Assembly (NCBI RefSeq): GCF_003427025.1
Contig: NZ_QVAI01000016.1
Span: 124,001 to 188,000 of the forward strand
Direction of reading: 5' to 3'
Source: Jiangella endophytica
GTDB taxonomy: Bacteria > Actinomycetota > Actinomycetes > Jiangellales > Jiangellaceae
DNA: 64,000 bases
Under the pieces are notes generated by a model. That model saw only the letters and a program-made list of their open reading frames with translations. It had not been told where the DNA came from and searched no databases. Made by a program: the position numbers and the translations under genes. Below, one piece after another: positions 435 to 28,296 of this stretch. How positions within the stretch are numbered: position 1 is the first letter of the stretch; every line of letters begins with the position of its first letter.

Positions 435-437
435 CGC

Positions 438-1553: not shown

Positions 1554-1554
1554 G

Positions 1555-2922
<1,368 letters not shown>

Positions 2923-10428: not shown

Positions 10429-10482
10429 TAAATGCTCTACTCTGTCTGCGACAAGGACCCGCCACCTGTCACGGAGGTGTCT

Positions 10483-10881: not shown

Positions 10882-10882
10882 C

Positions 10883-12370
10883 GTGATCGCCCACCCCGAC
10901 ACGGTCGTCGCGTGGATCGAGGCGGTCGCGCGTGCCCATGGAGGCCGCCCGGCGCTGATCCACGAGGCGGCCACCTGGAGCTACCGGGACCTGTGGTCTC
11001 GTGCGGAGGACGTCGCCCGGCGCCTGCTGGCCGATGGCCTGCGGCCCGGTGACGCGGTCGGTCTCCTCGGCGCGAACGAGCCGGCGTACATCGTGAACTA
11101 CCTCGGGATCGCTCGAGCGGGCGGGACCGCGGTGCCGGTCAACGACCGCCTCGACGGCGCGACGGTCCGCAGCCTGCTCGCCGCGGTCGACGCCACGCGC
11201 GTGTTCGTCGGCAGGGTGGACCCCGGTGTCCGCGACGAACTGGCCGAGACGTTCCAGATCCTCGCCATGCACGGCGACGGCCCGGTGCAGCGCCGGGGCC
11301 GGCTGCCCGTCGCCGGCCCCGGCTCGCCGGCCGCGATCATGCTGACCAGCGGTTCGACCGGCCGTCCGAAGGGCGTCGTCCACGCCCAGGGCACCATGTT
11401 GCACGCGGCACTGCAACTGGCCTCGGCGTTCCCGTTCCGCCCCGACGACCGTTCCGTGGTCTTCCTCCCGCTCTACGCCTGCATCCCGGAGCAGGTGCTC
11501 CCGGTGCTGTGCACCGGCGGCGCGCTGGAGATCCTGCCGCGGTTCGACATCGAGCGCGTCGCCGACGCCTGCACGCGGGCGACGACGTTCGACGCGGTGC
11601 CGACGATCCTGAGCCGGCTCATCGAACACGCGCCGCTGGAGAAGCTCGCCCACCTGCGATGGGTGATGTTCGCGTCCGAGCACATGCCGGTGACGCTTCT
11701 GCACCGCTGGTGGGACGAGCTGCCCGGGGTGGAGACGCACCAGCTCTACGGGATGACGGAGGTGCTGCCGCTGTCGGCGGCGCCGCACCGCCTGCTGCGC
11801 CGGGAACCGTCCACCATCGGGCGGGCGTTCCCGACGACGCTGCTGAGCGTGGAGAGCGGCTCGTCCGGCGGGGCCGCGGACGGCGGCGAGCTGGTCGGCG
11901 CCAGCCCGGCCCGGATGGTGGGGTACTACAAGGACGAGGTCGCCACGAAGGCGGCGCTCGGCCCGGACGGAGCCATGCGGACGGGGGACCTCGGCCGGAT
12001 CGACGAGCGTGGACTCGTCTTCCTGACCGGCCGGAGCAAGGACATCATCATCTCCGGCGGCATCAACATCGCGCCGGCCGAGATCGAGGCCGTCGCCTCC
12101 CGGCATCCGGCGGTCGAACGGGCCGTCGTCGTGGGCGTGCCCAGTGAGCGGTGGGGCGAGACCCCCGTCGTCGTCGCCGTGCCCCGCCCCGGCCAGCCAC
12201 TGACGGCGGACGACCTGCTGAGCCATTGCCGCTCGCTGCTGACCAGCTACAAGCGACCCACCGGTGCGGGCCTGATCGACACGCTCCCGACCACCGGCAT
12301 CGGCAAGACGGCCAAGGACACGGTGAGGAAGATGATCGTGGATGGGAAGATCAACGTTGTTCGAGTCTGA
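10883..12370 (+). CDS. Acyl-CoA synthetase (AMP-forming), copy 1
   Basis: This 495-residue ANL-superfamily enzyme activates a carboxylic acid with ATP and CoA. The phosphate loop MLTSGSTGRPKG is at 153-164, QLYGMTE forms the adenine pocket, and TGIGK near the end carries the catalytic Lys475. GTG 10883 is preferred over longer in-frame readings. It starts one base after the kal stop and gives an N-terminus aligned with the paralogue at 18345. The real substrate is unknown. Sitting between an ammonia-lyase and a B12 mutase, it would have to make the CoA ester that the mutase uses: 2-aminoisobutyrate or 2-hydroxyisobutyrate (inference). Confidence 0.9.
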   Translation: MIAHPDTVVAWIEAVARAHGGRPALIHEAATWSYRDLWSRAEDVARRLLADGLRPGDAVGLLGANEPAYIVNYLGIARAGGTAVPVNDRLDGATVRSLLAAVDATRVFVGRVDPGVRDELAETFQILAMHGDGPVQRRGRLPVAGPGSPAAIMLTSGSTGRPKGVVHAQGTMLHAALQLASAFPFRPDDRSVVFLPLYACIPEQVLPVLCTGGALEILPRFDIERVADACTRATTFDAVPTILSRLIEHAPLEKLAHLRWVMFASEHMPVTLLHRWWDELPGVETHQLYGMTEVLPLSAAPHRLLRREPSTIGRAFPTTLLSVESGSSGGAADGGELVGASPARMVGYYKDEVATKAALGPDGAMRTGDLGRIDERGLVFLTGRSKDIIISGGINIAPAEIEAVASRHPAVERAVVVGVPSERWGETPVVVAVPRPGQPLTADDLLSHCRSLLTSYKRPTGAGLIDTLPTTGIGKTAKDTVRKMIVDGKINVVRV

Positions 12371-13262
12371 CCAGATCGAGACGCTCGTGGCCAAGGGCCG
12401 GCAGGGCCACTGGGCGCCGCTCGCCCGGGCGGTGACCGTGGTCGAGAACAGCCCGCCCTGGGAGGTCTCGATCCCGCGGGCGCCCCGGCCCTGCCACATC
12501 GTGGGCATCACCGGACCGCCCGGCGCCGGCAAGAGCACCCTCACCGGCCGCCTGATCGAGTCCTTCGTCGACGACGGACAGCGGGTGGCGGTCCTCGCGA
12601 TCGACCCGTCCAGCCCGCTCAGCGGCGGCGCGGTCCTCGGCGACCGGGTGCGGATGGAGACGTACCTGACCGGCCGGCCCGGCGTGTTCGTGCGGAGCCT
12701 GGCCAGCCGCGGATCGCACGGAGCGGTCGCCGGGTCCACCAGGAACATCGCCCGGCTCCTGGAGCTGTCCGGCCTGTTCGACATCGTGCTCATCGAGACC
12801 GTGGGCGCGGGGCAGACCGAGGTCGCCATCGTCGAGGTCGCCGACACCGTGCTGCTGGTCACCGTGCCCGGGCTGGGCGACGCGGTGCAGACGATCAAGG
12901 CGGGGCTCATGGAGGTCGCCGACGCCTTCATCGTCAACATGGCCGACCGGCCCGGCGCCGCGGAGACGGCACGGCACCTGCGCCTGGCCGCCGGACGCGT
13001 GGACGCCGTCTACAAGACGGTGGCGATCGAGGGCACCGGAGTGGACCAGGTGCGCGACGGCATGTACGCGCGGTGGCGGTTCCTGCTCGAGGAGGGGCAG
13101 CTGGAGGCGCGCCGCCTGGAGAAGTGGGGTTCGGACGCGGCGCTGGTGGCGGAGGCGTGGGTCGCCGACACCGCCGGAGCGATCGCCCTGGACCCGCACG
13201 CCACCATGCAGGACTCCGTGGACCAGATCTTGAAGGAGGCGTCACGCCGATGGAACCGATGA
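12342..13262 (+). CDS. meaB: MeaB-type G3E GTPase, chaperone of B12 mutase
   Basis: This 306-residue protein has Walker A GPPGAGKST (58-66), the ETVGAGQTE switch segment and a C-terminal dimerisation arm, as in MeaB/ArgK/HcmC-type proteins. These protect acyl-CoA mutases from inactivation and gate adenosylcobalamin loading. It overlaps the synthetase by 29 bases if ATG 12342 is used. TTG 12357, with GGAAG upstream, is an equally possible start and removes five residues. The stop overlaps the mutase start. Its place directly before the large subunit matches dedicated chaperones in 2-hydroxyisobutyryl-CoA and isobutyryl-CoA mutase operons. Confidence 0.92.
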   Translation: MGRSTLFESDQIETLVAKGRQGHWAPLARAVTVVENSPPWEVSIPRAPRPCHIVGITGPPGAGKSTLTGRLIESFVDDGQRVAVLAIDPSSPLSGGAVLGDRVRMETYLTGRPGVFVRSLASRGSHGAVAGSTRNIARLLELSGLFDIVLIETVGAGQTEVAIVEVADTVLLVTVPGLGDAVQTIKAGLMEVADAFIVNMADRPGAAETARHLRLAAGRVDAVYKTVAIEGTGVDQVRDGMYARWRFLLEEGQLEARRLEKWGSDAALVAEAWVADTAGAIALDPHATMQDSVDQILKEASRRWNR

Positions 13263-14938
13263 ACGAGGACGACAAGCGCTGGGACGAGCGCGTCGAAGCC
13301 TGGAAGAGCGGCCGGGTCGCCGCCGACTACGAGCGGATCCCGCCGCGCCGCTCGGAGTACACCACCATGTCCGGTGCGCCGGTCAAGGACATCTACACCC
13401 ATGCCGACGTCCGGCACCTGGACCCCGCCGAGGACATCGGGCTCCCCGGCGAGTACCCCTACACCCGTGGCGTGCACGCCACGATGTACCGGGGCCGGCC
13501 GTGGACGATCCGGCAGGTGGCCGGCTTCGGCCAGGCCGAGGACACGAACAACCGGTACAAGTACCTGCTCAAGACCGGCCAGACCGGTCTCTCGACGGAC
13601 TTCGACCTGCCGACGCTACTGGGCTACGACTCCGATCACGAGGTCTACCGGCGTGAGGTCGGCCGCATCGGGGTCGCCGTCGACACCGTCGTCGACATGC
13701 ACGCGCTGTTCGACGGCATCCCGCTCGACGAGATCTCCACGTCGATGACGATCAACCCGTCGGCCGCCGTGGTGCTGGCCATGTACCGCGTGGTGGCCGA
13801 CGAGCGGGGGATCCCGGGCCAGGTGCTCACCGGGACCACCCAGAACGACATCCTCAAGGAGTACATCGCCCAGAACGAGTTCATCTTCCCGCCGCTCCCC
13901 TCGGTGCAGCTGGTGGTCGACACGATGGAGTACGGCGCCGACGTCATGCCGCGCTTCAACCCGCTCAACGTGTGCGGTTACCACATCCGCGACGCCGGCG
14001 CGACGGCGGTCGAGGAGGTCGGGCTGACGCTGAGCAACGCGCTGTGCTACCTCGAGCACGCGGTCGAGCGCGGCATCGACGTCGACCGGCTCGCGCCGCG
14101 CGTGTCGTTCTTCTGGGACGTGCACAACAACTTCTTCGAGGAGGCGGCGAAGCTCCGTGCCGCCCGCCGGTTGTGGGCGCGGCTCATGCGGGAGCGGCTG
14201 GGCGCCAAGGACCCCAGGTCCTGGCTGATGCGGGCGCACTGCCAGACCGCGGGCGTCTCGCTCACCGCGCAGCAGCCGTACAACAACGTGGCCCGGACCG
14301 CGATCCAGGCCATGGCCGCCATCCTGGGCGGCACCCAGTCGCTGCACACGAACTCCCTCGACGAGGCGCTGTCCATCCCGTCGGAGAGCGCGATCAAGAT
14401 CGCGGTGCGGACGCAGGCGATCATCCTGCACGAGACGGGCGTGGCCGACATCGTCGATCCGCTGGCCGGGTCGTACTACGTGGAGTCGCTCACGTCCCAG
14501 ATCGAGCAGGACGCGCTCGAACTGATCGAGCGCATCGACGCGATGGGCGGCATGATCGAGGCGGTCCAGTCCGGCTACGCGGTCCAGCTGATCTCCGACT
14601 CCGCCTGGGAGCAGCAGGTCAAGGTCGAGAGCAACGACACCATCACCGTCGGCGTGAACGACTACGTCGACGAGAACGAGACCCAGGACATCGAGATCGA
14701 CCGCCCGCTGCCGGGCGTGATGGAACGCCAGATGGACCGGCTCGCCGAGGTGAAGCGGTCCCGCGAGGACCGGCAGGTGAGCGCGACGCTCCGGGCGATC
14801 GAGAAGGCCGCGCCGGACCTGCACCACAACCTGATGCCGCTGATCGAGGATGCCGTGCGCGCCCGGGCCACGGTCGGCGAGATCTGCGACGTGCTGCGCG
14901 GCGTGTGGGGCCACCACCAGCCGTCGACCGTGTTCTAG
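13250..14938 (+). CDS. hcmA: B12-dependent acyl-CoA mutase large subunit, 2-hydroxyisobutyryl-CoA mutase type
   Basis: This 562-residue substrate-binding subunit lacks the B12 domain, which is encoded separately. Key residues fall at the numbers known for Aquincola HcmA: Val90 (IRQVAGF; Ile90 in HcmA, Tyr in methylmalonyl-CoA mutase, Phe in isobutyryl-CoA mutase), Asp117 (STDFD) and Gln208 (YIAQNE; Arg in methylmalonyl-CoA mutase). His245 in GYHIRDAG matches the conserved catalytic histidine. Asp117 binds the substrate hydroxyl in HcmA, so this is neither a methylmalonyl- nor a plain isobutyryl-CoA mutase. Start ATG 13250 follows AGGAGG; a second ATG is nine bases later. With Kal in the operon, the amino analogue 2-aminoisobutyryl-CoA is a plausible substrate. 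The reaction would move the CoA-carboxyl group, giving a 3-substituted butyryl-CoA. Confidence 0.9.
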   Translation: MEPMNEDDKRWDERVEAWKSGRVAADYERIPPRRSEYTTMSGAPVKDIYTHADVRHLDPAEDIGLPGEYPYTRGVHATMYRGRPWTIRQVAGFGQAEDTNNRYKYLLKTGQTGLSTDFDLPTLLGYDSDHEVYRREVGRIGVAVDTVVDMHALFDGIPLDEISTSMTINPSAAVVLAMYRVVADERGIPGQVLTGTTQNDILKEYIAQNEFIFPPLPSVQLVVDTMEYGADVMPRFNPLNVCGYHIRDAGATAVEEVGLTLSNALCYLEHAVERGIDVDRLAPRVSFFWDVHNNFFEEAAKLRAARRLWARLMRERLGAKDPRSWLMRAHCQTAGVSLTAQQPYNNVARTAIQAMAAILGGTQSLHTNSLDEALSIPSESAIKIAVRTQAIILHETGVADIVDPLAGSYYVESLTSQIEQDALELIERIDAMGGMIEAVQSGYAVQLISDSAWEQQVKVESNDTITVGVNDYVDENETQDIEIDRPLPGVMERQMDRLAEVKRSREDRQVSATLRAIEKAAPDLHHNLMPLIEDAVRARATVGEICDVLRGVWGHHQPSTVF

Positions 14939-14958
14939 AGGAACGAGAGGACAACACC

Positions 14959-15384
14959 ATGACATCCGCCTCCGCCAGTCTGCCGCCGCTCAAGGTGGTG
15001 ATCGCCAAGCCCGGGCTCGACGGGCACGACCGCGGTGCCAAGGTCGTGGCGCGTGCGTTGCGCGACTCCGGGATGGAGGTCGTCTACACCGGCATCTATC
15101 AGAGTCCGGAGTCGATCCTGCGCGCGGTCGTCCAGGAGGACGCCGACGTGCTCGGGCTGTCCAGCCTATCCGGCGCTCACCTCGAGTACGCCCGGGATCT
15201 GTGCGCGCTGCTGAAGGAGAACGACCGCCAGGACGTCCTGTTCGTGGTCGGCGGCACCATCCCGCCCGAGGACGCCGAGACGCTCAAGGGTTACGGCGTC
15301 CACGAGGTGTTCGGGCCCGGCACGCCGACCGCCGAGCTCGTCGAGTACATCTCCAGCAACGCGCGACAGGCCCGGCTGGCGTGA
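14959..15384 (+). CDS. hcmB: B12-binding small subunit of acyl-CoA mutase
   Basis: This 141-residue cobalamin-binding domain shows the full base-off/His-on signature: DGHDRG with His23 as lower cobalt ligand, SSL (68-70) and GG (98-99). It starts 20 bases after the large-subunit stop with GAGAGG upstream, and ends overlapping the P1 peptidase start. Separate A and B subunits are the rule for 2-hydroxyisobutyryl-CoA and isobutyryl-CoA mutases, whereas methylmalonyl-CoA mutases carry the domain fused. No cobalamin riboswitch is seen upstream of the operon. Confidence 0.93.
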   Translation: MTSASASLPPLKVVIAKPGLDGHDRGAKVVARALRDSGMEVVYTGIYQSPESILRAVVQEDADVLGLSSLSGAHLEYARDLCALLKENDRQDVLFVVGGTIPPEDAETLKGYGVHEVFGPGTPTAELVEYISSNARQARLA

Positions 15385-16481
15385 CGGTCCGGTCGCGCGA
15401 TCTCGGGATCGTGATCGGTGGCCTCCCGACCGGCCGGCACAACGCGATCACCGACGTCCCGGGCGTGCGGGTGGGCCACCATGCGGTGCACACCGGCGAC
15501 GGGCCGCTGGTGGTCGGGGAGGGCCCGGTGCGCACCGGGGTGACCGTCGTCGAGCCCCGGCCGCAGGTCTGGCGCTCGCCGGTCTTCGCCGGCTTCCACC
15601 GGCTCAACGGCAACGGCGAGATGACCGGGTTGCCCTGGATCCGGGAGAACGGGCAGCTCACCACGGCCATCGGCCTGACCAACACCCACTCGGTCGGGGT
15701 GGTCCGCGACGCGATCGTCGCCCGGCTGCACCGGGAACGGGGCGACGACGAGCTCTACTTCCACCTCCCGGTGGTGGCGGAGACGTACGACGGCATCCTG
15801 AGCGACATCAACGGCCAGCACGTCACGGCCGCCCACGTCGACGCGGCCTTCGACGCCCTGTCCGGCGGGCCCGTCGCCGAGGGCTCGGCCGGCAGCGGCA
15901 CGGGCATGATCTGCCACGAGTTCAAGGGCGGCATCGGCACGTCGTCGCGGGTCGTCGGCGACACCTACACCGTCGGCGTCCTCGTGCAGGCCAACCACGG
16001 CCGGCGTGGGCGGCTGCGGGTGAACGGCGTACCGGTCGGCGAGCGGATCCCCACCGACGACGTGCCGTCGCCGTTCGACGCGGTGGTGCGGGCGGCCCGG
16101 GGCAGTGGATCGATCATCGTGCTCATCGCGACGGACGCGCCGCTGCTGCCGCATCAGTGCGAACGGCTGGCCCAGCGCGGCGCCCTGGCCATCGGGCGGA
16201 CCGGCGGGTCCGGCGAGAACGGCAGCGGTGACCTGCTCCTGGCGTTCTCCACCGGCAACGAAGGTCTTCCCCGGGTCGGTCTGGTGGAGCCGGGACCGGA
16301 CGAGGTCGACCTGCGGATGGTCAGCAACGCGGTGATCAACGGGCTGTTCGACGCCGTCATCGACGCCACCGAGGAGGCGATCCTCAACGCCATGGTGGCC
16401 GCGCCGACCGCTGTCGGACGCGACGGGATCACCGCGCACGCCCTGGACCACGACCGCCTCCGCGAGGCCTACGCCGGGTGA
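15381..16481 (+). CDS. P1 family (DmpA/BapA-like) aminopeptidase
   Basis: This 366-residue Ntn-fold peptidase of family S58 (P1) starts at GTG 15381, overlapping the hcmB stop. The self-cleavage site is GSG|SIIVLIATDAPL, with Ser244 the nucleophile (Ser250 in DmpA). Tyr136, Asn205 (QANHG) and Ser282 match other DmpA active-site residues, while Asp284 stands where DmpA has Glu290. DmpA and BapA remove N-terminal D-, beta- or small residues that normal aminopeptidases refuse. A peptidase inside a CoA-mutase operon is unusual. It suggests the amino acid fed to the mutase pathway comes from peptides, such as an N-terminal Aib residue (inference). Confidence 0.9.
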   Translation: MTVRSRDLGIVIGGLPTGRHNAITDVPGVRVGHHAVHTGDGPLVVGEGPVRTGVTVVEPRPQVWRSPVFAGFHRLNGNGEMTGLPWIRENGQLTTAIGLTNTHSVGVVRDAIVARLHRERGDDELYFHLPVVAETYDGILSDINGQHVTAAHVDAAFDALSGGPVAEGSAGSGTGMICHEFKGGIGTSSRVVGDTYTVGVLVQANHGRRGRLRVNGVPVGERIPTDDVPSPFDAVVRAARGSGSIIVLIATDAPLLPHQCERLAQRGALAIGRTGGSGENGSGDLLLAFSTGNEGLPRVGLVEPGPDEVDLRMVSNAVINGLFDAVIDATEEAILNAMVAAPTAVGRDGITAHALDHDRLREAYAG

Positions 16482-16553
16482 GGCACCCCGGCGTCCACCG
16501 AAGCGCACTCATCCCCGAGAGCCTCCGCCGACCGAGGCAGAGAGGGCGGGCCG

Positions 16554-18332
16554 ATGCCAGCCACCGAACCGAACGCCGAGCCGAAGGCCGGATCTGACAC
16601 AGGCACGCCGTCCACCGTGGCCGCGGCGATCGCCGAGTACCTGTGCGGCCAGGGGATCGAGCGGGTGTTCAGCCTGCCCGGCTCGCACATGAAGCCGATC
16701 TGGGCGGAACTGGCCGAACGAGGGGTCCGGATCGTGACGGCGCGGCACGAGGTCGCCGCCGTGCACATGGCCCAGGCGGAGGCCGACCTCCGGCACAGGC
16801 TCGCCGTCGCGATCGTGACGACCGGGCCCGGGCTCACCAACGCGGTCACCGGGATCGGGTGCGCCTTCCTCGCCGGCTCGCCGGTGCTCGTGATCTCGAC
16901 CCGCCCGCCGGACGAGCAGGCGGGCATGGGCGCCCTGGAGGAGATCGACCAGGCGGCGATCGTCCGGCCGGTCTGCCGGGCGGTCGAGGTGGTCCGGTCC
17001 CGCCGGCACGTCGTCGACCGGCTCGACCGGGCCGTGAGCGCGGCGCTCGGCGACGACGGCCCCAGCGGCCCGGTGTACGTGGAGTTCGGCTCCGAGCTGC
17101 TGCGTCAGGCGGCCGCTCCGCTCTACACGACCTATCCGCGTCGCACGCGAGCGCGGCGACCACCCGACCCCGCCGCCGTCGGCCGTGCCGTCGACGCGAT
17201 CGCGGCCAGCCGGCGGCCGCTGGTGCTCGCCGGTCGCGAAGCGCTCACCGTGCCCGGTCCGCTGGCCGAGTTCGTGCGCACGACCGGTGCCCTGTACCTC
17301 GACACGCGGGCGAGCCGGGGAGCCCTGTCGGAGGACATCCCCTCCTTCGTGCCGGCGGCACGCGCCCGGGTGATGGCCGAGGCCGACCTGGTGATCACGG
17401 TCGGCCGGCAACTGGACTTCGAGGCGGCGTACGGGTCGCCGGCGGTGTTCACCGCTGCCGAGCGGTTCCTGCGCATCGGCCGGAACTCCGAGGAGGTCCA
17501 GGCCAACCGTCGCGGCGACGTCGAGCTGCGCGCCGACCCGCGCTCCGCCCTGGACGCCCTGGTGACGGCCGGCGCGGAGCCGGTGGACCTGGATCGCGAG
17601 TGGCGCGAGGACGTCATGCGCGGCAACGCCGGCAAGCGGCGCCGGCTGGGCGAGACCATGCGAGCCCCGGCCGCGGTCGCGGACGACGGGCTCCATCCGC
17701 ACGAGGTCATCCGCGCGCTGAACGAGCACATCGACGACGCCGCGATCGTGATCGTCGACGGCGGAGACATCCTGTCGTGGTCGCGATCGAGCCTGAACAC
17801 GCCCACCTACCTGGACCTGGGGCCGTTCGGATGCCTCGGCGTGGGCGTCCCGTTCGCGGTCTCGGCCTCGCTCAACCACCCGGACCGCACGGTCGTCGCG
17901 CTCGTCGGGGACGGCGCCCTGGGCTTCAACGTCATGGAGCTGGAGACCGCGGTCCGCGAAGGAGCACGTGTCGTCGTCGTCGTGGCCGACAACAGCGCGT
18001 GGAACATCGAGCGCGCCGACCAGGTCCTGCACTACCAGGGGCAGGTCATGGGCACCGAGCTCGGGCCCTGCGCCTGGGACCGGCTCGCCGAGAGCCTCGG
18101 TGTCGCCGGATACCGCGCCGACAACGCGGACGAGCTGGACGCGGCGCTCGGGGCGGCCTTCGCGCACGCTCCCGCCCTGGTCGCCGTCCGGGTCTCCCGC
18201 GAGCCGATCTCCCCGGACACCAGGAGCGGCCTGGCCCTGGTGCCGGAATACCACGTGCTCACCGCCTGGGACGAGGCGGAGCAGGCGTGGCTGTCGGGTC
18301 CGCGGCATGGGGACGTCGAATCGCACCGGTGA
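16554..18332 (+). CDS. ThDP-dependent 2-hydroxyacyl-CoA lyase-like enzyme
   Basis: This 592-residue thiamine-diphosphate enzyme has the POX/oxalyl-CoA decarboxylase architecture. Glu66 (ARHEVAAVH) activates the cofactor, and the Mg-ThDP motif runs from GDG 452-454 to Asn480. The segment after it, DNSAWNIERADQ, is more like actinobacterial 2-hydroxyacyl-CoA lyase than acetolactate synthase. The actinobacterial lyase from Actinomycetospora cleaves 2-hydroxyisobutyryl-CoA to acetone and formyl-CoA. The gene follows the P1 peptidase after 72 bases, and the second synthetase begins 12 bases after its stop. I infer a 2-hydroxyisobutyryl-CoA (or related tertiary hydroxyacyl-CoA) lyase. Oxalyl-CoA decarboxylase or a glyoxylate carboligase relative remains possible. 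Confidence 0.78.
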   Translation: MPATEPNAEPKAGSDTGTPSTVAAAIAEYLCGQGIERVFSLPGSHMKPIWAELAERGVRIVTARHEVAAVHMAQAEADLRHRLAVAIVTTGPGLTNAVTGIGCAFLAGSPVLVISTRPPDEQAGMGALEEIDQAAIVRPVCRAVEVVRSRRHVVDRLDRAVSAALGDDGPSGPVYVEFGSELLRQAAAPLYTTYPRRTRARRPPDPAAVGRAVDAIAASRRPLVLAGREALTVPGPLAEFVRTTGALYLDTRASRGALSEDIPSFVPAARARVMAEADLVITVGRQLDFEAAYGSPAVFTAAERFLRIGRNSEEVQANRRGDVELRADPRSALDALVTAGAEPVDLDREWREDVMRGNAGKRRRLGETMRAPAAVADDGLHPHEVIRALNEHIDDAAIVIVDGGDILSWSRSSLNTPTYLDLGPFGCLGVGVPFAVSASLNHPDRTVVALVGDGALGFNVMELETAVREGARVVVVVADNSAWNIERADQVLHYQGQVMGTELGPCAWDRLAESLGVAGYRADNADELDAALGAAFAHAPALVAVRVSREPISPDTRSGLALVPEYHVLTAWDEAEQAWLSGPRHGDVESHR

Positions 18333-18344
18333 GGTGGTCAGCAC

Positions 18345-19817
18345 ATGGTCAGAACCCTGTTGTCGCACATCGGCGCCGTGGTGCGGGCCCACCCGAACGA
18401 TCCGGCGCTGATCGGCGACGGTGAGACCTGGTCGTACGGGCAGTTCTGGTCCCGCACCGAGGAGCTGGCCCGCGGGCTGCTCGGCCTCGGACTGCGACCG
18501 GGCGAGCCGGTCGGGATCATCGGATGGAACGAGCCGGCGTACATCGCCGCCTACCTGGGCATCATGCGGGCCGGGCTCGTCGCGGTTCCCGTCAACACGA
18601 TGCTCGACCTCGCGTCGATCCGCGACCAGCTCGACCTCGTCGGCGTACGGACCATCGTCGTCGGCCGGGTGCCCGCCGAGATCCGGGAGGGGCTCCAGGA
18701 CTCCCATCGGCTCCTGGAGCTGTCCGCGCCGCCACGCGGGCCGTCGGGTCCGGCGCTGCCCCGGATCGCGCCGGACGCCACCTGCAAGATCATGCTCACC
18801 AGCGGCTCGACCGGACGACCGAAAGGCGTCGAGCACACGCACGGCTCCATCTTCCACACGGCGCTGCAGATGGCGACGGCGCTGCCGTTCGACCGCAGCG
18901 ACCGCGGCCTGGTGTTCCTGCCCCTCTACACCTGCATCCCCGAGCACGTCCTGCCGACCCTGTGCGCCGGCGGATCCCTGGAGGTCCTGCCCGGCTTCGA
19001 CGTCGACCGGGTCGCCGACGCCTGCACCAGGGCGACGACGTTCGACGCCATACCGACGATCCTCAGCCGGCTCCTCGAGCACGCGCCGCCGCGGAAGCTC
19101 GCCGGGCTCCGGTGGATCCTCTTCGCCTCCGAGCCGATGCCGGCCCACCTGCTCCGGAGGTGGTGGGACACGTTTCCCGGGGTGGAGACGCACCAGTTCT
19201 ACGGGCTGACGGAACTGGTGCCCGTCACCGTCGCGTCGCACGCCATGCTGCGCGCCGAGCCCACGACCGTCGGGCGGGCCTTCCCGACGACCGAGCTGAC
19301 GCTCGACCCGTTGGAGGGCCACGAGGACGGCGGGGAGATCCTGGCCGCCGCCCCCAGCCGCATGCGCGGGTACTTCGGCGACGCCGAGGCGACGAACGGC
19401 GCGCTGACGGCGACCGGCGCGTTGCGCACCGGGGACATCGGCCGGGTCGACGACCGTGGACTGGTCTTCCTGACCGGACGGCTCAAGGACATCATCATCT
19501 CCGGCGGCTTCAACGTCGCTCCGGCCGAGATCGAGGCGGCGGCGTTCGGCCACGGGGGCGTCCAGGAGGCCATCGTCGTGGGGGTGCCGAGCGCTCGGTG
19601 GGGCGAGACCCCGGTGGTCGTGGCCGTGCCGAAACCGGGCAGCGGCCTCACCGCGGAGGGCCTGCTCCGGCACTGTCGTGAGGCGCTGCCGGGCTTCAAA
19701 CGGCCGTCGGCGGCCGCGCTGGTGCCGAGCCTGCCGGTCACCGGGATCGGCAAGGGCGACAAGGCCGCGGTGCGGCGGCTGATCGCGGACGGGGTGATCG
19801 ACCTGGTCGGTGCCTGA
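18345..19817 (+). CDS. Acyl-CoA synthetase (AMP-forming), copy 2
   Basis: This 490-residue paralogue of the synthetase at 10883 shares long blocks such as WNEPAYI-type, FLPLYTCIPE, TTFDAIPTILSRL and KDIIISGG. It has MLTSGSTGRPKG at 150-161 and catalytic Lys470 in TGIGK. GAGGTGG lies before its ATG. Having one synthetase beside the mutase and one beside the lyase suggests two different acids are activated, for example the amino and the hydroxy analogue of isobutyrate (inference). It ends 5 bases before the convergent GntR gene stop. Confidence 0.9.
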   Translation: MVRTLLSHIGAVVRAHPNDPALIGDGETWSYGQFWSRTEELARGLLGLGLRPGEPVGIIGWNEPAYIAAYLGIMRAGLVAVPVNTMLDLASIRDQLDLVGVRTIVVGRVPAEIREGLQDSHRLLELSAPPRGPSGPALPRIAPDATCKIMLTSGSTGRPKGVEHTHGSIFHTALQMATALPFDRSDRGLVFLPLYTCIPEHVLPTLCAGGSLEVLPGFDVDRVADACTRATTFDAIPTILSRLLEHAPPRKLAGLRWILFASEPMPAHLLRRWWDTFPGVETHQFYGLTELVPVTVASHAMLRAEPTTVGRAFPTTELTLDPLEGHEDGGEILAAAPSRMRGYFGDAEATNGALTATGALRTGDIGRVDDRGLVFLTGRLKDIIISGGFNVAPAEIEAAAFGHGGVQEAIVVGVPSARWGETPVVVAVPKPGSGLTAEGLLRHCREALPGFKRPSAAALVPSLPVTGIGKGDKAAVRRLIADGVIDLVGA

Positions 19818-19822: not shown

Positions 19823-20800
19823 TCAGCCCGCGTGGGCGGGCGCGGGCGCCTGACCGAGCGACGGGGCCGCGCCGCGCTTGAGCTCCTGCATGTCGCGGAC
19901 GACGTCGCTGACCATGCGGATGGACGCGGCGTCGAGGACGTTGCCGAACTCCATGACGTGCACCCGGCCCTCGAGCTGTTCCCTCAGCTCGCCCATGCCG
20001 TCGGGGATCACGACGAGATCGACGCCCTCGAGGTTCTTGTCCTCGATGCCGTCGAGCACCTCGATGTTCTTGATGCCCGAGTCGCGCAGCGAGTCGCGGA
20101 CGGTGATGGCCTGCTCGTCGGTGCGGTACCAGATGCCGACCGTCCCGTTCCGCGCCACGGAGGCGATCTGGACGAGCGTCTGGACGTGCGGCGCGACGAC
20201 GATGGCGACGATCTCGGTGTTGGGGCGGCGCATGAGCGCGCGCACCTCGGCGAGGTGGAAGAACGTGGTGAGGACGAGGTCGGCGCGCTCCTCCTCGGGC
20301 TCGAAGGTGCCCAGGACCAGCGGCCGCACCTTGACGCCGATGTTGGCCTCGAGCTCGTTCGCGAAGTACTTGGCGCGGTCGGCGTTGCACTCGACGAAGG
20401 AGACCTTCAGGAGGTCGTCCTCGGCGCGCAGCGCCAGGCTCATGACCAGCGACTGGATCTCGGCCGCCGACAGGCCGAGCTCGATGCATTCACGGGTGGC
20501 CGCCTCGAGCAGCTGCCGGGCCTGATCGCGGGCCAGCGAGCCCTCGCGCTCGGGGCCGGGCCCCACGACGATCGTCCCACTGCGTCCGCGCCCCTCGACC
20601 AGGCCGATATCGCCGAGTTCGGCATAGGCCCGAGCGACGGTGTTGCGGTTGATGTGCAGGTTGTCGGCGAGCAGGCGGGCGCTGGGGAGGGCCTGGCCGG
20701 GTGCGAGGTCGCCAGTCTCGATCATGAACGACAACTGCGTGACGATCTGCCGGTAGATAGGCACATCGGAGTGCAGACTCACCTGAATCTTCTCGACCAC
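19823..20800 (-). CDS. GntR-family transcriptional regulator (YtrA-like N-terminus, large effector domain)
   Basis: The protein has 325 residues from a GTG start with GGGAGAG upstream. Residues 10-80 are a GntR winged helix (PIYRQIVTQLSFMIE, LPSARLLADNLHINRNTVARAY). The remaining 240 residues look like an alpha/beta ligand-binding domain rather than the FCD or UTRA type. It is placed between the CoA operon and the transporter operon. The YtrA-type HTH and the presence of TAT-N4-ATA-like palindromes make it the best candidate for binding the GACCTA-N6-TAGGTC sites (inference). A half-site GACCTA lies near 20869 in its own upstream region. Confidence 0.85.
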   Translation of the reverse strand: MVEKIQVSLHSDVPIYRQIVTQLSFMIETGDLAPGQALPSARLLADNLHINRNTVARAYAELGDIGLVEGRGRSGTIVVGPGPEREGSLARDQARQLLEAATRECIELGLSAAEIQSLVMSLALRAEDDLLKVSFVECNADRAKYFANELEANIGVKVRPLVLGTFEPEEERADLVLTTFFHLAEVRALMRRPNTEIVAIVVAPHVQTLVQIASVARNGTVGIWYRTDEQAITVRDSLRDSGIKNIEVLDGIEDKNLEGVDLVVIPDGMGELREQLEGRVHVMEFGNVLDAASIRMVSDVVRDMQELKRGAAPSLGQAPAPAHAG

Positions 20801-21384: not shown

Positions 21385-23052
21385 ATGTCCGAGACGAACC
21401 GTGTTCCGAAGCGCGGACGGCGCCGCGTGCAGATCATGTCGTGCGCCATCGGCGTCACGCTGCTCGCGGCGTGCGCCGGTGGCGGCGGCGGTGGCGGCGC
21501 CGGCGACCAGGATCCGGCCAGCGGCGGTGCCGGGCCGGCCACGACAGCCAGGACGGTGGACCCGGGCCAACCGGTGTCGGACCAGCAGATCCCGCACCTC
21601 AACGTGGGCCTGGCCGGCAAGGTGACGCTCGTCGACCCGGCGGAGAACATGGAGTCGGGTCTGTTCGTCAACCAGCTCGGCCTGGAGCCGCTGCTGCGGA
21701 TCGACCCGGAGGGTCAGCTGCAGCCCTGGCTGGCGACCGAGTGGGAGCAGGTCAGCGACACCGTCTACGAGTACACGCTGCGCGAGGGCGTGACGTTCTG
21801 GGACGGCACCGAGCTGACCGCCGAGGACGTCAAGTACTCCTGGGACCACGTACGGGCGCCGGAGAGCCGGCGGGCCAACTACTTCACCACGGTCGACACC
21901 ATCGAGGTCGTGGACCCGTACACGGTGCGGGTCACACTGACCCAGCCGGACGCGTCGTGGCAGTACGTGCCGGCGATGTGGTACTCGGTGATCTTCCAGA
22001 AGACGTTCGCCGAAGAGGCCGGCGACGCCTTCGGCCAGCCCGGCACCCTGCTGGTGGCGACCGGTCCGTGGAAGTTCGACAGCGTCAACCCGGCGACCGG
22101 GATGGAGCTGTCGGCCCACGAGGACTACTGGGGTGGCAAGCCCCCGGTCGACCGGATCTCGATCAAGGCCTTCGCCGACGACAACAGCATGGCGCTGGCG
22201 CTGCGTTCCGGGGCGATCGACATCACCCCGACGGTGGCCGGCCCCACCGGCTTCGACGCCGCCGCCGGCGGCAACTCCGTCACGACGGTGCCGACCTGTG
22301 CCAACACGCTGCTCAGCATTCCCACGCAGAGTGAGCCGTGGAACGACGTGCACGTGCGCCGCGCGGTCGCGTACGCGATCAACCAGGAGGACATCATCGC
22401 GGCGGCCCAGGGCGCCGCGGCCGGACCGGCCGAGCACGTGATCTCGGAGCGGCTGCTGCAGACGCTCGGTTCCGGTGAGGAGATCGACGCGGCGCTCGAG
22501 GGCGTGGCGACCTACTCGTTCGACGTGGAGGCCGCCAAGGCCGAGATGGCGCAGTCGTCGGTCCCGGACGGGTTCAGCTACGACCTCACGGTGGTCGCGG
22601 CGTCGGCCGCCATCGCCGAGGTGATCGCCGCTCAGCTGAGCGAGATCGGCATCGACATCACCGTCGCGGTGCTCCAGGACACCGCGTACTACGCCGCCCT
22701 CGGCGAGGACGAGAAGCCGTTCACGTTCTTCGCGACCGGTCCCTGCTCGCCCGACCCGAGCTGGGCCGCCCTGTTCGTGGACACCGACGAGGCCGGGCAG
22801 CCGGTCGGACTGAACTTCGCCGAGTACGCGCCGCCGGAGGTGACGCAGCTGCTCGCCGACGGGCTGCTGGAGCAGGACCCGCAGGAGCGGCTGGGCATCT
22901 ACGCGGAGGTGCTCCGGCACCTGGGCGAGGACGTTCCCTACGTGCCGCTCTACGCCGAGGGCAACACCTACGGCTCGACCGATTACGACCTGGTCGAGTT
23001 CAGCAGCTTCTGGTCCAACCTGCCCTGGGTGCTGAACCTCGTCCCCAAGTAG
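21385..23052 (+). CDS. Peptide ABC transporter substrate-binding lipoprotein 1
   Basis: This 555-residue SBP family 5 (DppA/OppA) protein has a basic N-terminus, a hydrophobic stretch and lipobox LAAC with Cys30, so it is anchored outside the membrane. Typical segments are EPLLRIDPEGQLQPWLATEW, LREGVTFWDGTELTAEDV and GTGPW-like GPWKFDS. It is the first of four tandem paralogues. It shares 120 bases of identical DNA (21666-21785) with copy 2 (23381-23500), a sign of recent duplication or gene conversion. The ribosome site is weak. It delivers oligopeptides to the permeases encoded downstream. Confidence 0.93.
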   Translation: MSETNRVPKRGRRRVQIMSCAIGVTLLAACAGGGGGGGAGDQDPASGGAGPATTARTVDPGQPVSDQQIPHLNVGLAGKVTLVDPAENMESGLFVNQLGLEPLLRIDPEGQLQPWLATEWEQVSDTVYEYTLREGVTFWDGTELTAEDVKYSWDHVRAPESRRANYFTTVDTIEVVDPYTVRVTLTQPDASWQYVPAMWYSVIFQKTFAEEAGDAFGQPGTLLVATGPWKFDSVNPATGMELSAHEDYWGGKPPVDRISIKAFADDNSMALALRSGAIDITPTVAGPTGFDAAAGGNSVTTVPTCANTLLSIPTQSEPWNDVHVRRAVAYAINQEDIIAAAQGAAAGPAEHVISERLLQTLGSGEEIDAALEGVATYSFDVEAAKAEMAQSSVPDGFSYDLTVVAASAAIAEVIAAQLSEIGIDITVAVLQDTAYYAALGEDEKPFTFFATGPCSPDPSWAALFVDTDEAGQPVGLNFAEYAPPEVTQLLADGLLEQDPQERLGIYAEVLRHLGEDVPYVPLYAEGNTYGSTDYDLVEFSSFWSNLPWVLNLVPK

Positions 23053-23102
23053 TGGTCCGTTGCCGGTCGAACACCCGTGGTCGTGAGACGAGGAGTGAGC
23101 GC

Positions 23103-24770
23103 ATGTCCGAAACGACGAGAACCAGGCACGGACGCGGGGCGCGGATCGTGTCCTGTCTGCTCACCACCGCGCTGCTCGCGGCCTGCGCCGGGAACGGCCC
23201 CGCGGGTGAGGACGGCGCCGGCGACGGGGCGGCCGGGGGCGGCGAGCGGCCGGCGGACACCGCGCGGACGGTGGACCCCGGTCAGCCGGTCTCGGACGAG
23301 CACATCGATCAGCTCACGGTCGGCATCCCCGGCAAGGTGACGCTCGTCGACCCGGCCGACAACATGGAAGCGGGTCTCAACGTCAACCAGCTCGGCCTGG
23401 AGCCGCTGCTGCGGATCGACCCGGAGGGTCAGCTGCAGCCCTGGCTGGCGACCGAGTGGGAGCAGGTCAGCGACACCGTCTACGAGTACACGCTGCGCGA
23501 CGGTGTGACGTTCTGGGACGGCACCGAGCTGACCGCCGAGGACGTCAAGTACTCCTGGGATCATCTGCGGGCGCCGGAGAGCCGGCGAGCGACGTACTTC
23601 GCGGCAGTCGACACCATCGAGGCCGTCGACGCCGGCACGGTGCGGGTGACCCTGAAGCAGCCGGACGCGTCGTGGCAGTACACGCCGGCCATGTGGTACT
23701 CGGTGATCTTCCAGAAGACGTTCGCCGAACAGGCCGGGGACGCCTTCGGCCAGCCCGGCACCCTGCTCGTGGCGACCGGTCCGTGGAAGTTCGACAGCGT
23801 CAACCCGGCCAGCGGGATGGAGCTGTCGGCCTACGAGGGCTACTGGGGCGGCGAGCCGCCGATCGACCGGATCTCGGTGAAGTCGTTCGCCGACGACAAC
23901 AGCATGGCGTTGGCGCTGCGCGCCGGTGAGATCGACATCGCACCCGTCGTCAGCGGGCCGACCGGCTTCGACGCCGCCGCCGGCGGCAACACGGTCACGA
24001 CGGTGCAGACGTGCGGCACCGCTCGGATGAGCCTGCCGACACGGCGCGCGCCGTGGGACGACGTGCACGTGCGCCGGGCGGTCGCACACGCGATCAACCG
24101 GGACGACATCGTCGCCGCCGCCCAGGGGGCCGCGGCCGGACCCGCGGTGTACGCGATCGCTCCGCAGCTGCTCCAGACGCTCGGCACCGAGGCGGAGGTC
24201 CAGGCCGCGCTGGAGGAGGTCGAGACGTACCCTTACGACCTGGAGGCCGCCGAGGCCGAGCTGGCGCAGTCGTCGGTCCCGGACGGGTTCAGCTTCGACC
24301 TCACCGTTCCCCCTGCCTCCGCCGCCATCGCCGAGGTGATCGCCGCTCAGCTGGGCGAGATCGGGATCGACATCGCCGTCGAGGTCCTCCCGGACACGGC
24401 CTGGTACGCCTCGCTCCGCGAGGACGATCGCCCGTTCACGTTCTCCGCGACCGGGGCGTGCACGCCGGACCCGGACTGGGACTCGCTCTTCTTCGACACC
24501 GACGCGTCCGGTGAGCCGATCGGGCTGAACATGGCCCAGTACTCCTCACCGGAGGTCACCGCCCTCTGGGCCGAGGGCCTGCTGGAGCAGGACCCGGCGC
24601 AGCGGCTGCGGATCTACACGGACCTGCAGAAGCAGGTCGCCGAGGACGTCCCCTACATCTCCCTGTTCGCCGAGGGGACGACGTACGCCTCCACCACGTA
24701 CGACCTCGTCGAATACAACAGCTATTTCTGGATGAACCTGCCCTGGGCGCTGAACCTGGTGCCGAAATGA
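23103..24770 (+). CDS. Peptide ABC transporter substrate-binding lipoprotein 2
   Basis: This 555-residue paralogue has exactly the length of copy 1. I place the start at ATG 23103 (MSETTRTRHGRG) because AGGAG lies seven bases upstream; an upstream reading from 23052 has no ribosome site. The lipobox is LLAAC. It is closest to copy 1: the region around EPLLRIDPEGQLQPW is identical at DNA level. The ligand-facing second half is more divergent, consistent with altered peptide preference (inference). Confidence 0.93.
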   Translation: MSETTRTRHGRGARIVSCLLTTALLAACAGNGPAGEDGAGDGAAGGGERPADTARTVDPGQPVSDEHIDQLTVGIPGKVTLVDPADNMEAGLNVNQLGLEPLLRIDPEGQLQPWLATEWEQVSDTVYEYTLRDGVTFWDGTELTAEDVKYSWDHLRAPESRRATYFAAVDTIEAVDAGTVRVTLKQPDASWQYTPAMWYSVIFQKTFAEQAGDAFGQPGTLLVATGPWKFDSVNPASGMELSAYEGYWGGEPPIDRISVKSFADDNSMALALRAGEIDIAPVVSGPTGFDAAAGGNTVTTVQTCGTARMSLPTRRAPWDDVHVRRAVAHAINRDDIVAAAQGAAAGPAVYAIAPQLLQTLGTEAEVQAALEEVETYPYDLEAAEAELAQSSVPDGFSFDLTVPPASAAIAEVIAAQLGEIGIDIAVEVLPDTAWYASLREDDRPFTFSATGACTPDPDWDSLFFDTDASGEPIGLNMAQYSSPEVTALWAEGLLEQDPAQRLRIYTDLQKQVAEDVPYISLFAEGTTYASTTYDLVEYNSYFWMNLPWALNLVPK

Positions 24771-24885
24771 CGGCGCCGTCCGGATCTCCGGACGCGCGGT
24801 CCGTCCCCGAAGCAGACGACGTCTCTGCTGGATCCGAACCCGTTGCTGTTCACGCGTGGCGTGATCTCAGACGAGGAGTGAGCAC

Positions 24886-26538
24886 ATGTCCGGATCGACC
24901 AGGAACAGGGGATGGCGGCGGGCGCGGGTCGCGTCCTGTCTGCTCGGCGCAGCCGTACTGGCGGCGTGTGCCGGCAACGGACCGGCCGACGACGACCCGG
25001 CCAGCGGCGACGGCGAGCACCCCGGCGCCACGGCCAGGGACGTCGATGCAGGGAAGCCGGTGTCCGACGAGCCCATCCCGCACCTCACCGTCGGCATCTC
25101 GGGCCAGGTGCCGCTGGTCGATCCGGCGCAGAACGTCATGTCGGGTCTGTACGTCAACATGAACGCGCTGGAGCCGCTGCTGCAGGTCGACGCGGACGGG
25201 AAACTCGAGCCGTGGCTCGCGGCCGACTGGGAGAAGGTCAGCGACACGGTCTACGAGTACACGCTGCGCGAGGGCGTCAAGTTCTGGGACGGCACCGAGC
25301 TGACGTCGGACGACGTGAAGTACTCCTGGGACCAGATGGCGCCGGCGGCCGACGGGACGAGCACGATGTTCGCGGCCGTCGCGAGCATCGAGGCGCCGGA
25401 CAAGTACACGGTCCGGGTGACGCTGCACCAGCCGGACGCGTCGTGGCAGTACGTGCCCGCGATGTACTACGGCGTCATCTACCAGAAGGCGCACGCCGAG
25501 CAGACCGGCGAGGAGTTCGGGCGCCCGGCCACGCTGGCGGTGGGGACCGGCCCGTGGAAGTTCGACAGCCTCAATCCCACCAGCGGGATGGAGCTGTCGG
25601 CGCACGAGGACTACTGGGGCGGGAAGCCGCCGATCGACCGGGTCTCGGTCAAGTTCTTCACCGACGACAACAGCATGGCTCTGGCGATGCGGGCCGGTGA
25701 GATCGACATCGCGCCGGGCATCGGCCAGCCCGAGGGCTTCGCCGCCGCCGCCGGCACGGCGAGCACCTACACGACGGCCACCTGCGCGACGTCGCTGGTG
25801 AGCATGCCGACGCGGACCGCGCCGTGGGACGACATCCACGTCCGCCGGGCGGTGGCGCACGCGATCAACCGCGACGACATCATCGCCTCGACCCAGGGAC
25901 GGGCGGGGGCGCCGCTGCACACGCTGATCTCACCGCAGCTCTTCGAGTCGCTCGGATCCTCCGACGAGGTCGAGGCGGCGCTGGAGGAGGTCGAGACCTA
26001 TCCGTTCGACCTGGAGGCGGCCAAGGCCGAGCTGGCGCAGTCGTCGGTCCCGGACGGGTTCAGCTACGACCTCACCATTCCCGGCGGCTCCTCCGCCACC
26101 GCCCAGGTGGTCTCGGCCCAACTGGCCGAGATCGGCATCGACGCCCCGGTCAAGGTCATCCCGGACACCGCGTGGTACGGGATGATCGCCGAGCGCGACC
26201 CGATGTTCACCTTCACCGAGACCGGCGCCTGCACACCGGACCCGGACTGGGACTCGATCTTCCTGCGCACCGACGACGCGGGTGAGCCGATCGGGCTGAA
26301 CCTGGCCCAGTACACGCCGCCCGAGGTCAAGGAGCTGCTCACCGAGGGGTTGCTGGAACAGGACCCGGCCGAGCGGTTGCGGATCTACACGGAGCTGTCG
26401 AAGCAGGTCGCCGAGGACGTTCCCTACGTGCCCGTGTACGCCGAGGGCAACACCTACGCGTCGGCCGACTACGACATCGTCGAGTACGACAGCTTCTGGA
26501 TGAGCTTCCCCTGGCTGCTGAACGTGGTGCCGCGATGA
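24886..26538 (+). CDS. Peptide ABC transporter substrate-binding lipoprotein 3
   Basis: The third paralogue has 550 residues and begins at ATG 24886 with GAGGAG nine bases upstream. Its N-terminal signal ends in lipobox VLAAC. It differs from copies 1 and 2 around LLQVDADGKLEPWLAADWEK and in the acidic linker after the cysteine. The stop overlaps the start of copy 4 (ATGA). It is separated from copy 2 by 115 bases that look like a duplicate of the preceding spacer type, with the same GAGGAGTGAGC ribosome site. Confidence 0.93.
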   Translation: MSGSTRNRGWRRARVASCLLGAAVLAACAGNGPADDDPASGDGEHPGATARDVDAGKPVSDEPIPHLTVGISGQVPLVDPAQNVMSGLYVNMNALEPLLQVDADGKLEPWLAADWEKVSDTVYEYTLREGVKFWDGTELTSDDVKYSWDQMAPAADGTSTMFAAVASIEAPDKYTVRVTLHQPDASWQYVPAMYYGVIYQKAHAEQTGEEFGRPATLAVGTGPWKFDSLNPTSGMELSAHEDYWGGKPPIDRVSVKFFTDDNSMALAMRAGEIDIAPGIGQPEGFAAAAGTASTYTTATCATSLVSMPTRTAPWDDIHVRRAVAHAINRDDIIASTQGRAGAPLHTLISPQLFESLGSSDEVEAALEEVETYPFDLEAAKAELAQSSVPDGFSYDLTIPGGSSATAQVVSAQLAEIGIDAPVKVIPDTAWYGMIAERDPMFTFTETGACTPDPDWDSIFLRTDDAGEPIGLNLAQYTPPEVKELLTEGLLEQDPAERLRIYTELSKQVAEDVPYVPVYAEGNTYASADYDIVEYDSFWMSFPWLLNVVPR

Positions 26539-28184: not shown

Positions 28185-28251
28185 GCGGCCCGTGACCGGC
28201 TCCCGGCCGACCCGGAGATTCCCGACGCGTGACACGACTCGAGAGGTGATC

Positions 28252-28296
28252 ATGATCAAGCCCGTACGGTCCGGCGCGGTGAGGACGCTGCGATGA
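28252..28296 (+). CDS. 14-codon mini-ORF before the permease, possibly translational coupler
   Basis: ATG 28252 is preceded by GAGAGG with a five-base spacer, a better ribosome site than that of the permease itself. It encodes MIKPVRSGAVRTLR and ends at TGA 28294-28296, which overlaps the permease ATG (ATGA). It could couple permease translation. It may also be chance in GC-rich DNA. Confidence 0.35.
   Translation: MIKPVRSGAVRTLR

Follow-up and report, generated by a model that had tools for sequence, protein, structure and literature searches.

The lyase and its partner synthetase

The window analysed here is a stretch of 64,000 nucleotides from Jiangella endophytica (assembly GCF_003427025.1, contig NZ_QVAI01000016.1, positions 124,001 to 188,000). 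It contains a gene for a thiamine diphosphate (ThDP)-dependent acyl-CoA lyase of 592 amino acids (16554..18332, + strand) that belongs to the family of the 2-hydroxyacyl-CoA lyase AcHACL, and, directly downstream, the gene of its partner, the AMP-forming acyl-CoA synthetase Acs2 of 490 amino acids (18345..19817, +). That both are open frames at these coordinates is nearly certain. They are the last of eight genes on the + strand (10432-19817) encoding, in this order, a protein resembling 3-aminobutyryl-CoA ammonia lyase (KAL), synthetase 1 (Acs1), a MeaB-type GTPase, the large and small subunits of a B12-dependent acyl-CoA mutase, an S58 aminopeptidase, the lyase and Acs2. The intergenic gaps from the KAL-like gene through Acs2 are 1, -29, -13, 20, -4, 72 and 12 bases. 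Because the gaps range only from -29 to 72 bases, one operon that includes the mutase is likely, and the lyase and Acs2 are likely part of it. This agrees with the original prediction, which had paired a second synthetase with the lyase in the mutase operon. Gene order is identical in the five other Jiangella genomes compared. The operon is present in 6 of the 12 Jiangella genomes considered, i.e. the genome of the window and 11 others. A promoter scan found no promoter. Of five terminator-like sites, two fall within the mutase gene, two lie at the start of the KAL-like gene or ahead of it and one is past the operon; they were taken as no evidence.

The proposed resemblance of the lyase to actinobacterial 2-hydroxyacyl-CoA lyases was borne out. 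It scores 612.2 bits with the NCBIfam equivalog model NF058623 (2-hydroxyacyl-CoA lyase; cut-off 600), none of the 24 other models listed for it reaches its own cut-off, and its best PDB match is AcHACL (7pt1, E 5.5e-127), to which it is 43% identical. The closest named record is from J. muralis DSM 45357. With the AlphaFold2 model of the lyase (mean pLDDT 86.5), the 16 best PDB matches are all AcHACL chains with TMq values of 0.89-0.91. L127 and I492 of the short-chain pocket and the sequence of the C-terminal lid (pLDDT 60-80) are kept. The active site sits between two chains and cannot be shown by this single-chain model. Oxalyl-CoA decarboxylase (NF006721, 202.7 bits vs 557; TIGR03254, 186.9 vs 739.4) and acetolactate synthase (TIGR00118, 217.6 vs 538.35), the identities that would have spoken against the original prediction, were rejected, as these profile scores lie far below the cut-offs. 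In two comparisons, dN/dS of the lyase was 0.20 and 0.22. Within the order, 6 of 22 genomes have a lyase above cut-off, and at E <= 1e-120 the lyase is found in 6 of 393 sampled genomes of the class, which are the same six Jiangella.

Active-site exchanges in a clade of lyases

An alignment of 87 family rows comprised seven Jiangella rows from six genomes, locus L040 from a metagenome-assembled genome (MAG) of the Streptosporangiaceae, 78 other loci and AcHACL itself. The 80 loci of the AcHACL family surveyed here are the best 80 of 257 relatives, and many of them end at contig edges. At position 128 (AcHACL numbering), Glu is found in all eight rows formed by Jiangella and L040, hereafter the Glu clade, and Gln in all 79 others; the corresponding residue of the lyase is Glu129 (codon 16938-16940). 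Position 41 is Pro in all eight clade rows (Pro42, codon 16677-16679) and either Gln (70) or Cys (9) in the remaining ones. Ser occupies position 43 in the seven Jiangella rows (Ser44, codon 16683-16685), and Gly in L040 as well as in the 79 others. Since the loci were recruited by two peptide patterns spanning positions 43, 45 and 46, counts there are not independent; neither pattern includes position 41 or 128. The clade also deviates at positions 39, 45, 46, 61, 89, 256, 293, 415 and a few more. E256 of AcHACL is replaced by Ala in the lyase, and the residue before position 128 is Leu, where oxalyl-CoA decarboxylase has Tyr. Invariant in all 87 rows are the ThDP-activating Glu65, H44, T88, I492, the acid/base residue E493 and D496, with I492-E493 corresponding to Ile485-Glu486 of the lyase (18006-18011). 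In a tree built from 32 of these rows and two outgroups (34 rows in total) the Glu rows are monophyletic with a support of 100/100 and cluster with other actinobacterial lyases (98/98); the alignment used with the structural model had 25 rows.

Gln128 is described as conserved in all 2-hydroxyacyl-CoA lyases (HACL), whereas oxalyl-CoA decarboxylase has Glu there (PMC13327070). The exchange in the Glu clade contradicts this published rule, and Glu129 deprives the lyase of the residue by which a HACL would be recognized. In AcHACL, the hydroxyl group at the acyl Cβ is reported to contact Gly43 and a water molecule held by H44, T88 and Q128; Gln128 also holds the thioester oxygen and Gln41 holds E493 (PMC13327070; PMC8760513). 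Together with other residues, E256 fills the ADP site of AcHACL (PMC8760513). Given the AcHACL contacts of positions 41, 43 and 128, the exchanges appear to cluster around the Cβ substituent of the substrate, the group by which hydroxy substrates would differ from amino substrates.

Outside Jiangella, L040 is the sole Glu-clade locus among the best 80 of the 257 relatives, and its lyase is 63% identical to that of the window. NF058623 scores are 668.5 bits for L040 and 605.9 bits for another Jiangella lyase of the clade (L038). The genes of L040 (2844-15336) encode, in this order, a ligase, a glutamine-synthetase-like protein, a short-chain dehydrogenase/reductase (SDR), a C26 peptidase, an aldehyde dehydrogenase, an R2-like oxidase, the lyase, a RidA-like protein, a GntR-family regulator and, on the opposite strand, a protein similar to 2,2-dialkylglycine decarboxylase (DGD). 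The ligase is 50.0% identical to Acs1, the regulator 58% identical to the one that follows the operon in the window, and for the DGD-like protein the identity is 54%. RidA-type enzymes hydrolyze imines, so that the RidA-like gene, which immediately follows that of the lyase, would be in keeping with a ketimine as the product; RidA also accompanies pyridoxal phosphate enzymes such as DGD. Neither mutase nor KAL genes were found in the 21.7 kb stretch of L040, which covers 10 kb flanks of the lyase. Four mutases were found in the genome, each of which has Ala where Asp117 would be (see below), and no KAL match was obtained in this MAG of unstated completeness at E <= 1e-8 with a query that matches 75 of 393 genomes of the class. 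A mutase/KAL outlet is thus not evident from the L040 genome sequence. The L040 cluster itself has the look of a distinct pathway for an amine or an amino alcohol.

Acyl-CoA synthetases

Acs2 is a FadD-like, AMP-binding protein and a paralogue of Acs1 from the same operon (495 amino acids, GTG start, 10883..12370, +), with which it shares 58.6% identity. Acs1, Acs2 and the L040 ligase have a Glu in common (Glu203, Glu200 and Glu201, respectively) at a site where five ligases from other lyase loci carry a CHANS stretch. By analogy with 4-coumarate ligase we take this residue to line the acyl pocket, and a Glu in this putative pocket may serve as a lead to the substrate. Ligases matching Acs1 and Acs2 occur in 69 of the 80 loci, with identities of 24-33% outside L040 and the J. 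muralis locus L039. As a comparator for the activation of 2-hydroxyisobutyric acid (2-HIBA) we used the PaaK-like ligase of the mycobacterial cluster L042, which its context lets us read as a 2-HIBA-CoA ligase. It has no match in L039 at E 1e-10, and with this comparator an A. chiangmaiensis-type gene pair with a PaaK-like 2-HIBA-CoA ligase was not found.

The mutase branch and DGD

The large mutase subunit (13250..14938, +) has HcmA (4r3u, E 1.5e-172) as its closest solved relative. It lies between the MeaB-type GTPase (12342..13262, +), which is recognized by the Pfam MeaB model and falls just below the cut-off of TIGR00750 (239.1 vs 240.75), and the B12-binding small subunit (14959..15384, +). 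Its motif RQVAGFG...STDFDLPT contains Val90 and Asp117. The mutases of L041, L042 and L111 combine Ile with Asp, the other aligned rows Tyr or Phe with Ala. Positions 90 and 117 are presumably the substrate-relevant residues of 2-hydroxyisobutyryl-CoA mutase (HCM), and the operon mutase shows the HCM combination of Asp117 with Ile or Val at position 90, which does not separate hydroxy from amino substrates. Relative to HcmAB, Asp117 is kept, whereas Val replaces Ile in RQ(I)AGFG and a KAL-like partner is present. Among 396 genomes of the phylum, 60 match the mutase at E <= 1e-180; the matches listed, except the window itself, are 50-54% identical.

The KAL-like hot-dog protein (10432..10881, +) is a divergent relative of the 3-aminobutyryl-CoA ammonia lyase of lysine fermentation. 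Its gene probably starts at 10483, where the alignment of four of the five other Jiangella copies begins. The protein reaches 106.1 bits with NF052388, whose cut-off is 160, and the L038 copy 111.8 bits. Still, 22 columns are invariant in ten KAL-type sequences (three from Jiangella, seven from relatives in the class), nine of which contain GDEGL, and of two relatives tested with the model L126 passes (170.5) and L130 fails (133.5). Family profiles place the alpha subunit of lysine 5,6-aminomutase next to the KAL relatives L126, L128 and L132. Six of the seven KAL loci with neighbors read look lysine-5,6-aminomutase-like, and L130 has a decarboxylase-like neighbor. By eye, the KAL homologues of L125, L136 and L139 also look to be located beside lysine 5,6-aminomutase genes, which suggests an anaerobic-type lysine pathway in such actinomycetes. 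The gene in the operon differs in its position beside an acyl-CoA mutase: of the 75 matching class genomes six are Jiangella, and in 24 other KAL loci of about 2-3.4 kb none of the operon's mutase genes was found.

Because a KAL-like gene heads the mutase operon, the natural reading is a conversion of 2-aminoisobutyryl-CoA to 3-aminobutyryl-CoA and on to crotonyl-CoA and NH3, and judged from its genes the mutase branch likely processes 2-aminoisobutyric acid (Aib). A literature search for an aminoisobutyryl-CoA or aminobutyryl-CoA mutase, with word-start matching that may miss prefixed names, returned none. An SDR dehydrogenase gene of the window (48263-49072, -) has no NCBIfam model above cut-off; by eye its product could be a 3-hydroxyacyl-CoA dehydrogenase acting after hydration of crotonyl-CoA.

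Upstream of the operon lie genes for DGD (1555..2868, -), which scores 603.2 bits against its closest solved relative 1d7r (best non-DGD 237.8), and an adjoining alanine dehydrogenase (438..1553, -; TIGR00518, 531.3 bits, cut-off 391.85). DGD converts Aib and pyruvate to acetone, CO2 and L-Ala (PMC7782822), and the alanine dehydrogenase would regenerate pyruvate. DGD is found in 6 of the 12 Jiangella genomes, exactly those with a lyase above cut-off and a KAL match; it lies at most about 14 kb from the lyase in all six and adjoins the GntR gene in G006. Two independent 6-of-12 traits would coincide with a probability of 1/924 if kinship is ignored; a single shared gain of the island would also explain the pattern. 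This exact co-occurrence and the KAL-like first gene, even if below its model cut-off, lend weight to the earlier suggestion that an amino acid is processed via the mutase. A search for the diiron monooxygenase family PF02332 (acetone oxidation) matched in 0 of the 12 Jiangella, but the control did not match either and no absence is claimed.

The surrounding island

The S58 aminopeptidase of the operon (15381..16481, +) is of the DmpA/BapA type, and its gene overlaps the end of the small mutase subunit. A GntR-family regulator (19823..20800, -) is encoded convergently with the operon. It is followed by an oligopeptide-type ABC uptake system of four tandem SBP-like proteins and two permeases (21385..30121, +), of which SBP 1, SBP 4 and permease 1 were assigned by Pfam and the rest by eye. 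Further downstream, the overlapping genes of a GMC oxidoreductase and an aldehyde dehydrogenase (41886..44955, +) were found; the oxidoreductase resembles MftG and choline dehydrogenase below the cut-offs (MftG model, 349.7 bits vs 387.45). The island around the operon holds peptide-binding proteins, permeases, a gamma-glutamyltransferase, M19, S9, S10 and S15 peptidases, an amidohydrolase and the GMC oxidoreductase with its aldehyde dehydrogenase. A block of M19, S10, S9, GMC and aldehyde dehydrogenase genes is retained downstream of the operon in the five other Jiangella. The peptidase array as a whole (28293-64000 and 3183-10267) includes three M19, several S9/DPP-IV-type, S10, S15, gamma-glutamyltransferase, DUF885 and amidohydrolase genes as well as a second SBP_bac_5 protein (54434-55990), and its synteny extends in part to the five other operon-bearing Jiangella.

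The island likely serves peptide scavenging. Peptaibols carry C-terminal amino alcohols, and the GMC oxidoreductase and aldehyde dehydrogenase could oxidize such amino alcohols of Aib-rich peptides or act on a diol. That Aib-rich fungal peptides are the source is our guess; fungal peptide antibiotics have been named as a site of Aib in the biosphere (PMC7782822). A literature search on peptaibol degradation by Actinobacteria found nothing usable.

Discussion

From the family identities, the likely operon, its synteny, the co-occurrence with DGD and the residues of the clade we infer substrates and reactions as follows. The lyase and Acs2 would constitute a second CoA-level branch of an operon for the degradation of α,α-dialkyl amino acids (Aib or isovaline, for example) that are imported as peptides. 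Acs2 would form the CoA ester of a short α-tertiary acid, most likely 2-aminoisobutyryl-CoA or 2-amino-2-methylbutyryl-CoA. In the lyase, ThDP would add to the thioester carbonyl and the Cα-Cβ bond would be split to yield a carbonyl-type product, whereupon the carbanion would be protonated by Glu486 and formyl-CoA released. With an aminoacyl-CoA the first product would be a ketimine, hydrolyzed to acetone or butanone and NH3, and Glu129, Ser44 and Glu486 would stand in for the contacts by which AcHACL keeps the hydroxyl group in place. In the neighboring branch, Acs1 would form Aib-CoA, from which the B12 mutase and the KAL-like protein would produce 3-aminobutyryl-CoA and then crotonyl-CoA and NH3. 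We put the probability that the lyase acts on α,α-dialkyl aminoacyl-CoA with release of ketimine and formyl-CoA at roughly 0.4. The wider proposition is more tentative: the Glu clade may represent the first case of a ThDP enzyme that splits 2-amino-2-methylacyl-CoA into formyl-CoA and ketimine and, in Jiangella, may do so within a CoA/B12 route for Aib and isovaline from fungal-type peptides that is distinct from the published routes via DGD and AibH1H2.

Several points weigh against an aminoacyl-CoA substrate. To our knowledge, no ThDP enzyme cleaves aminoacyl-CoA, and our literature search, in which word-start matching may miss prefixed names, returned none. NF058623 names both types of Glu-clade lyase 2-hydroxyacyl-CoA lyase. 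L040 keeps Gly at position 43, so Ser is not clade-wide there, only two lineages contribute to the residue signal, and the Glu of the ligases was placed by alignment alone. A third Aib route looks redundant beside DGD and the mutase/KAL branch, unless another amino acid or isomer is served. A hydroxy acid could, in principle, be produced by the GMC oxidoreductase and aldehyde dehydrogenase encoded 22 kb beyond the operon on its downstream side. Finally, Glu at position 128 need not mean amine binding, as oxalyl-CoA decarboxylase has the same residue (PMC13327070).

A close rival, possible if somewhat doubtful, is a canonical actinobacterial 2-hydroxyacyl-CoA lyase, for which Acs2 would activate 2-hydroxyisobutyrate or 2-hydroxy-2-methylbutyrate and the lyase would release acetone or butanone and formyl-CoA. 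This corresponds to the division of labor in the original prediction, an amino acid via the mutase and a hydroxy acid via the lyase. The lyase passes the family model and retains L127, I492, E493 and the sequence of the lid, AcHACL is reported to convert both hydroxy esters (PMC7176365), an AMP-ligase nearby is usual in the family, and the island contains the GMC oxidoreductase and aldehyde dehydrogenase. On the other hand, the Gln128 of all 79 relatives, published as universal in HACL, is replaced together with its neighbors 41 and 43, the PaaK-like L042 ligase lacks a counterpart in the J. muralis locus, the source of a tertiary hydroxy acid is not evident, and a DGD or DGD-like gene lies in both Glu-clade contexts. 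Of the two predicted branches, the mutase for the amino acid therefore stands, whereas the assignment of a hydroxy acid to the lyase has become less secure, given the loss of Gln128, ligases that are not HCL-like and the amine- or Aib-like context of L040. The Glu at position 128 and the Ala in place of E256 at the ADP site would also agree with another ThDP reaction, be it oxalyl-CoA decarboxylation, acetolactate-type chemistry or a reaction of some unknown acyl-CoA. We consider this unlikely, since the scores for oxalyl-CoA decarboxylase and acetolactate synthase given above are low, Leu rather than the Tyr of oxalyl-CoA decarboxylase precedes position 128, and E493 and the lid sequence are retained.

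Alternatively, the lyase and the mutase could work in series and in reverse, joining acetone from DGD with formyl-CoA to 2-hydroxyisobutyryl-CoA that is rearranged to 3-hydroxybutyryl-CoA. DGD would supply acetone, AcHACL is reported to be reversible (PMC8760513; PMC13327070), for sulfate reducers a ThDP enzyme and a B12 mutase have been proposed to act on acetone, the ThDP step and the formyl donor being described as unproven (PMC7888143), and AcHACL-type lyases occur near a mutase in L041, L073, L090 and L111. We regard such a series as unlikely: no source of formyl-CoA was seen, the KAL-like gene implies 3-aminobutyryl-CoA rather than 3-hydroxybutyryl-CoA, L040 combines a lyase with a DGD-like gene without a mutase in the 10 kb flanks, in a genome whose four mutases all lack Asp117, and HCL-like ligases in L090 and, as a contig-edge fragment, in L111 point to 2-HIBA. 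Three loci deserve mention in this regard. L041, from a MAG of the Solirubrobacterales, encodes an HCM-like mutase, MeaB, an iron-containing alcohol dehydrogenase and an AcHACL-type lyase (431-7261) with no CoA ligase matched in 17 kb, and is a candidate for the use of acetone or isopropanol by formylation. L073 and L090 belong to one MAG of the Desulfohalobiaceae, in which both AcHACL-type lyases lie close to a B12 mutase; they may be relevant to the enzyme that would formylate acetone in sulfate reducers and is as yet unproven.

As predicted, the family scans, which covered part of the open reading frames of the window, found no enzyme for handling formyl-CoA. Its lack is uninformative because the A. 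chiangmaiensis study, too, is reported to have found no specific formyl-CoA hydrolase (PMC7176365). Formate dehydrogenase-like genes in 11 of the 12 Jiangella, none above cut-off, are likewise uninformative, as the exception (G012) has the lyase.

The co-existence of lyase and mutase in one cluster, on which the original prediction had placed emphasis, was confirmed but is less special than assumed. Both genes occur together in 8 of the 80 loci (L039, L041, L042, L050, L073, L090, L101 and L111), of which L042, L050 and L090 match the PaaK-like L042 ligase, as does L111 with a fragment at the contig edge. The combination is not new: Mycolicibacterium sp. ELW1, which degrades isobutylene, has been published to carry it in ibc cluster 2, where the lyase was called a possible minor route (PMC13188929). 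This cluster differs in its 2-HIBA-CoA ligase and isobutylene genes, and the accessible part of the report does not mention KAL or DGD (PMC13188929). With AcHACL the lyase shares family, fold, L127, I492, E493, the lid, an adjacent synthetase and the logic of acyl-CoA C-C cleavage; it differs in the exchanges Q128E, Q41P and G43S, the FadD-like partner, an operon with a KAL-like protein, S58 peptidase and mutase, and the nearby DGD. The catalytic efficiency of AcHACL on 2-hydroxyisobutyryl-CoA is given as about 11 per s per mM (PMC8760513). CoA ligation followed by ammonia elimination at the CoA level, for an amino acid beyond the reach of transaminases, is known from BvaA and BvaB of the β-valine degrader Pseudomonas SBV1; that pathway, as far as described in the available text, concerns a β-amino acid and employs a PaaK-like ligase and lyases of the enoyl-CoA hydratase type, without a mutase or a ThDP lyase (PMC4619459). 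Aib catabolism via DGD or AibH1H2 of Rhodococcus wratislaviensis has the inferred starting compound in common with the Jiangella island, in which DGD and alanine dehydrogenase are present, but the accessible part of that source describes no CoA ester of Aib for either route (PMC7782822).

Even as an ordinary hydroxyacyl-CoA lyase, the enzyme would provide a natural Gln-to-Glu variant for work on the mechanism. If the lyase does act on aminoacyl-CoA esters, ThDP chemistry would extend to this class of substrates, and the reverse reaction could couple formyl-CoA to ketimines to give α,α-dialkyl amino acids. The island would then offer a testable bacterial route for Aib peptides that comprises uptake, peptidases, CoA ligase, B12 mutase and KAL.

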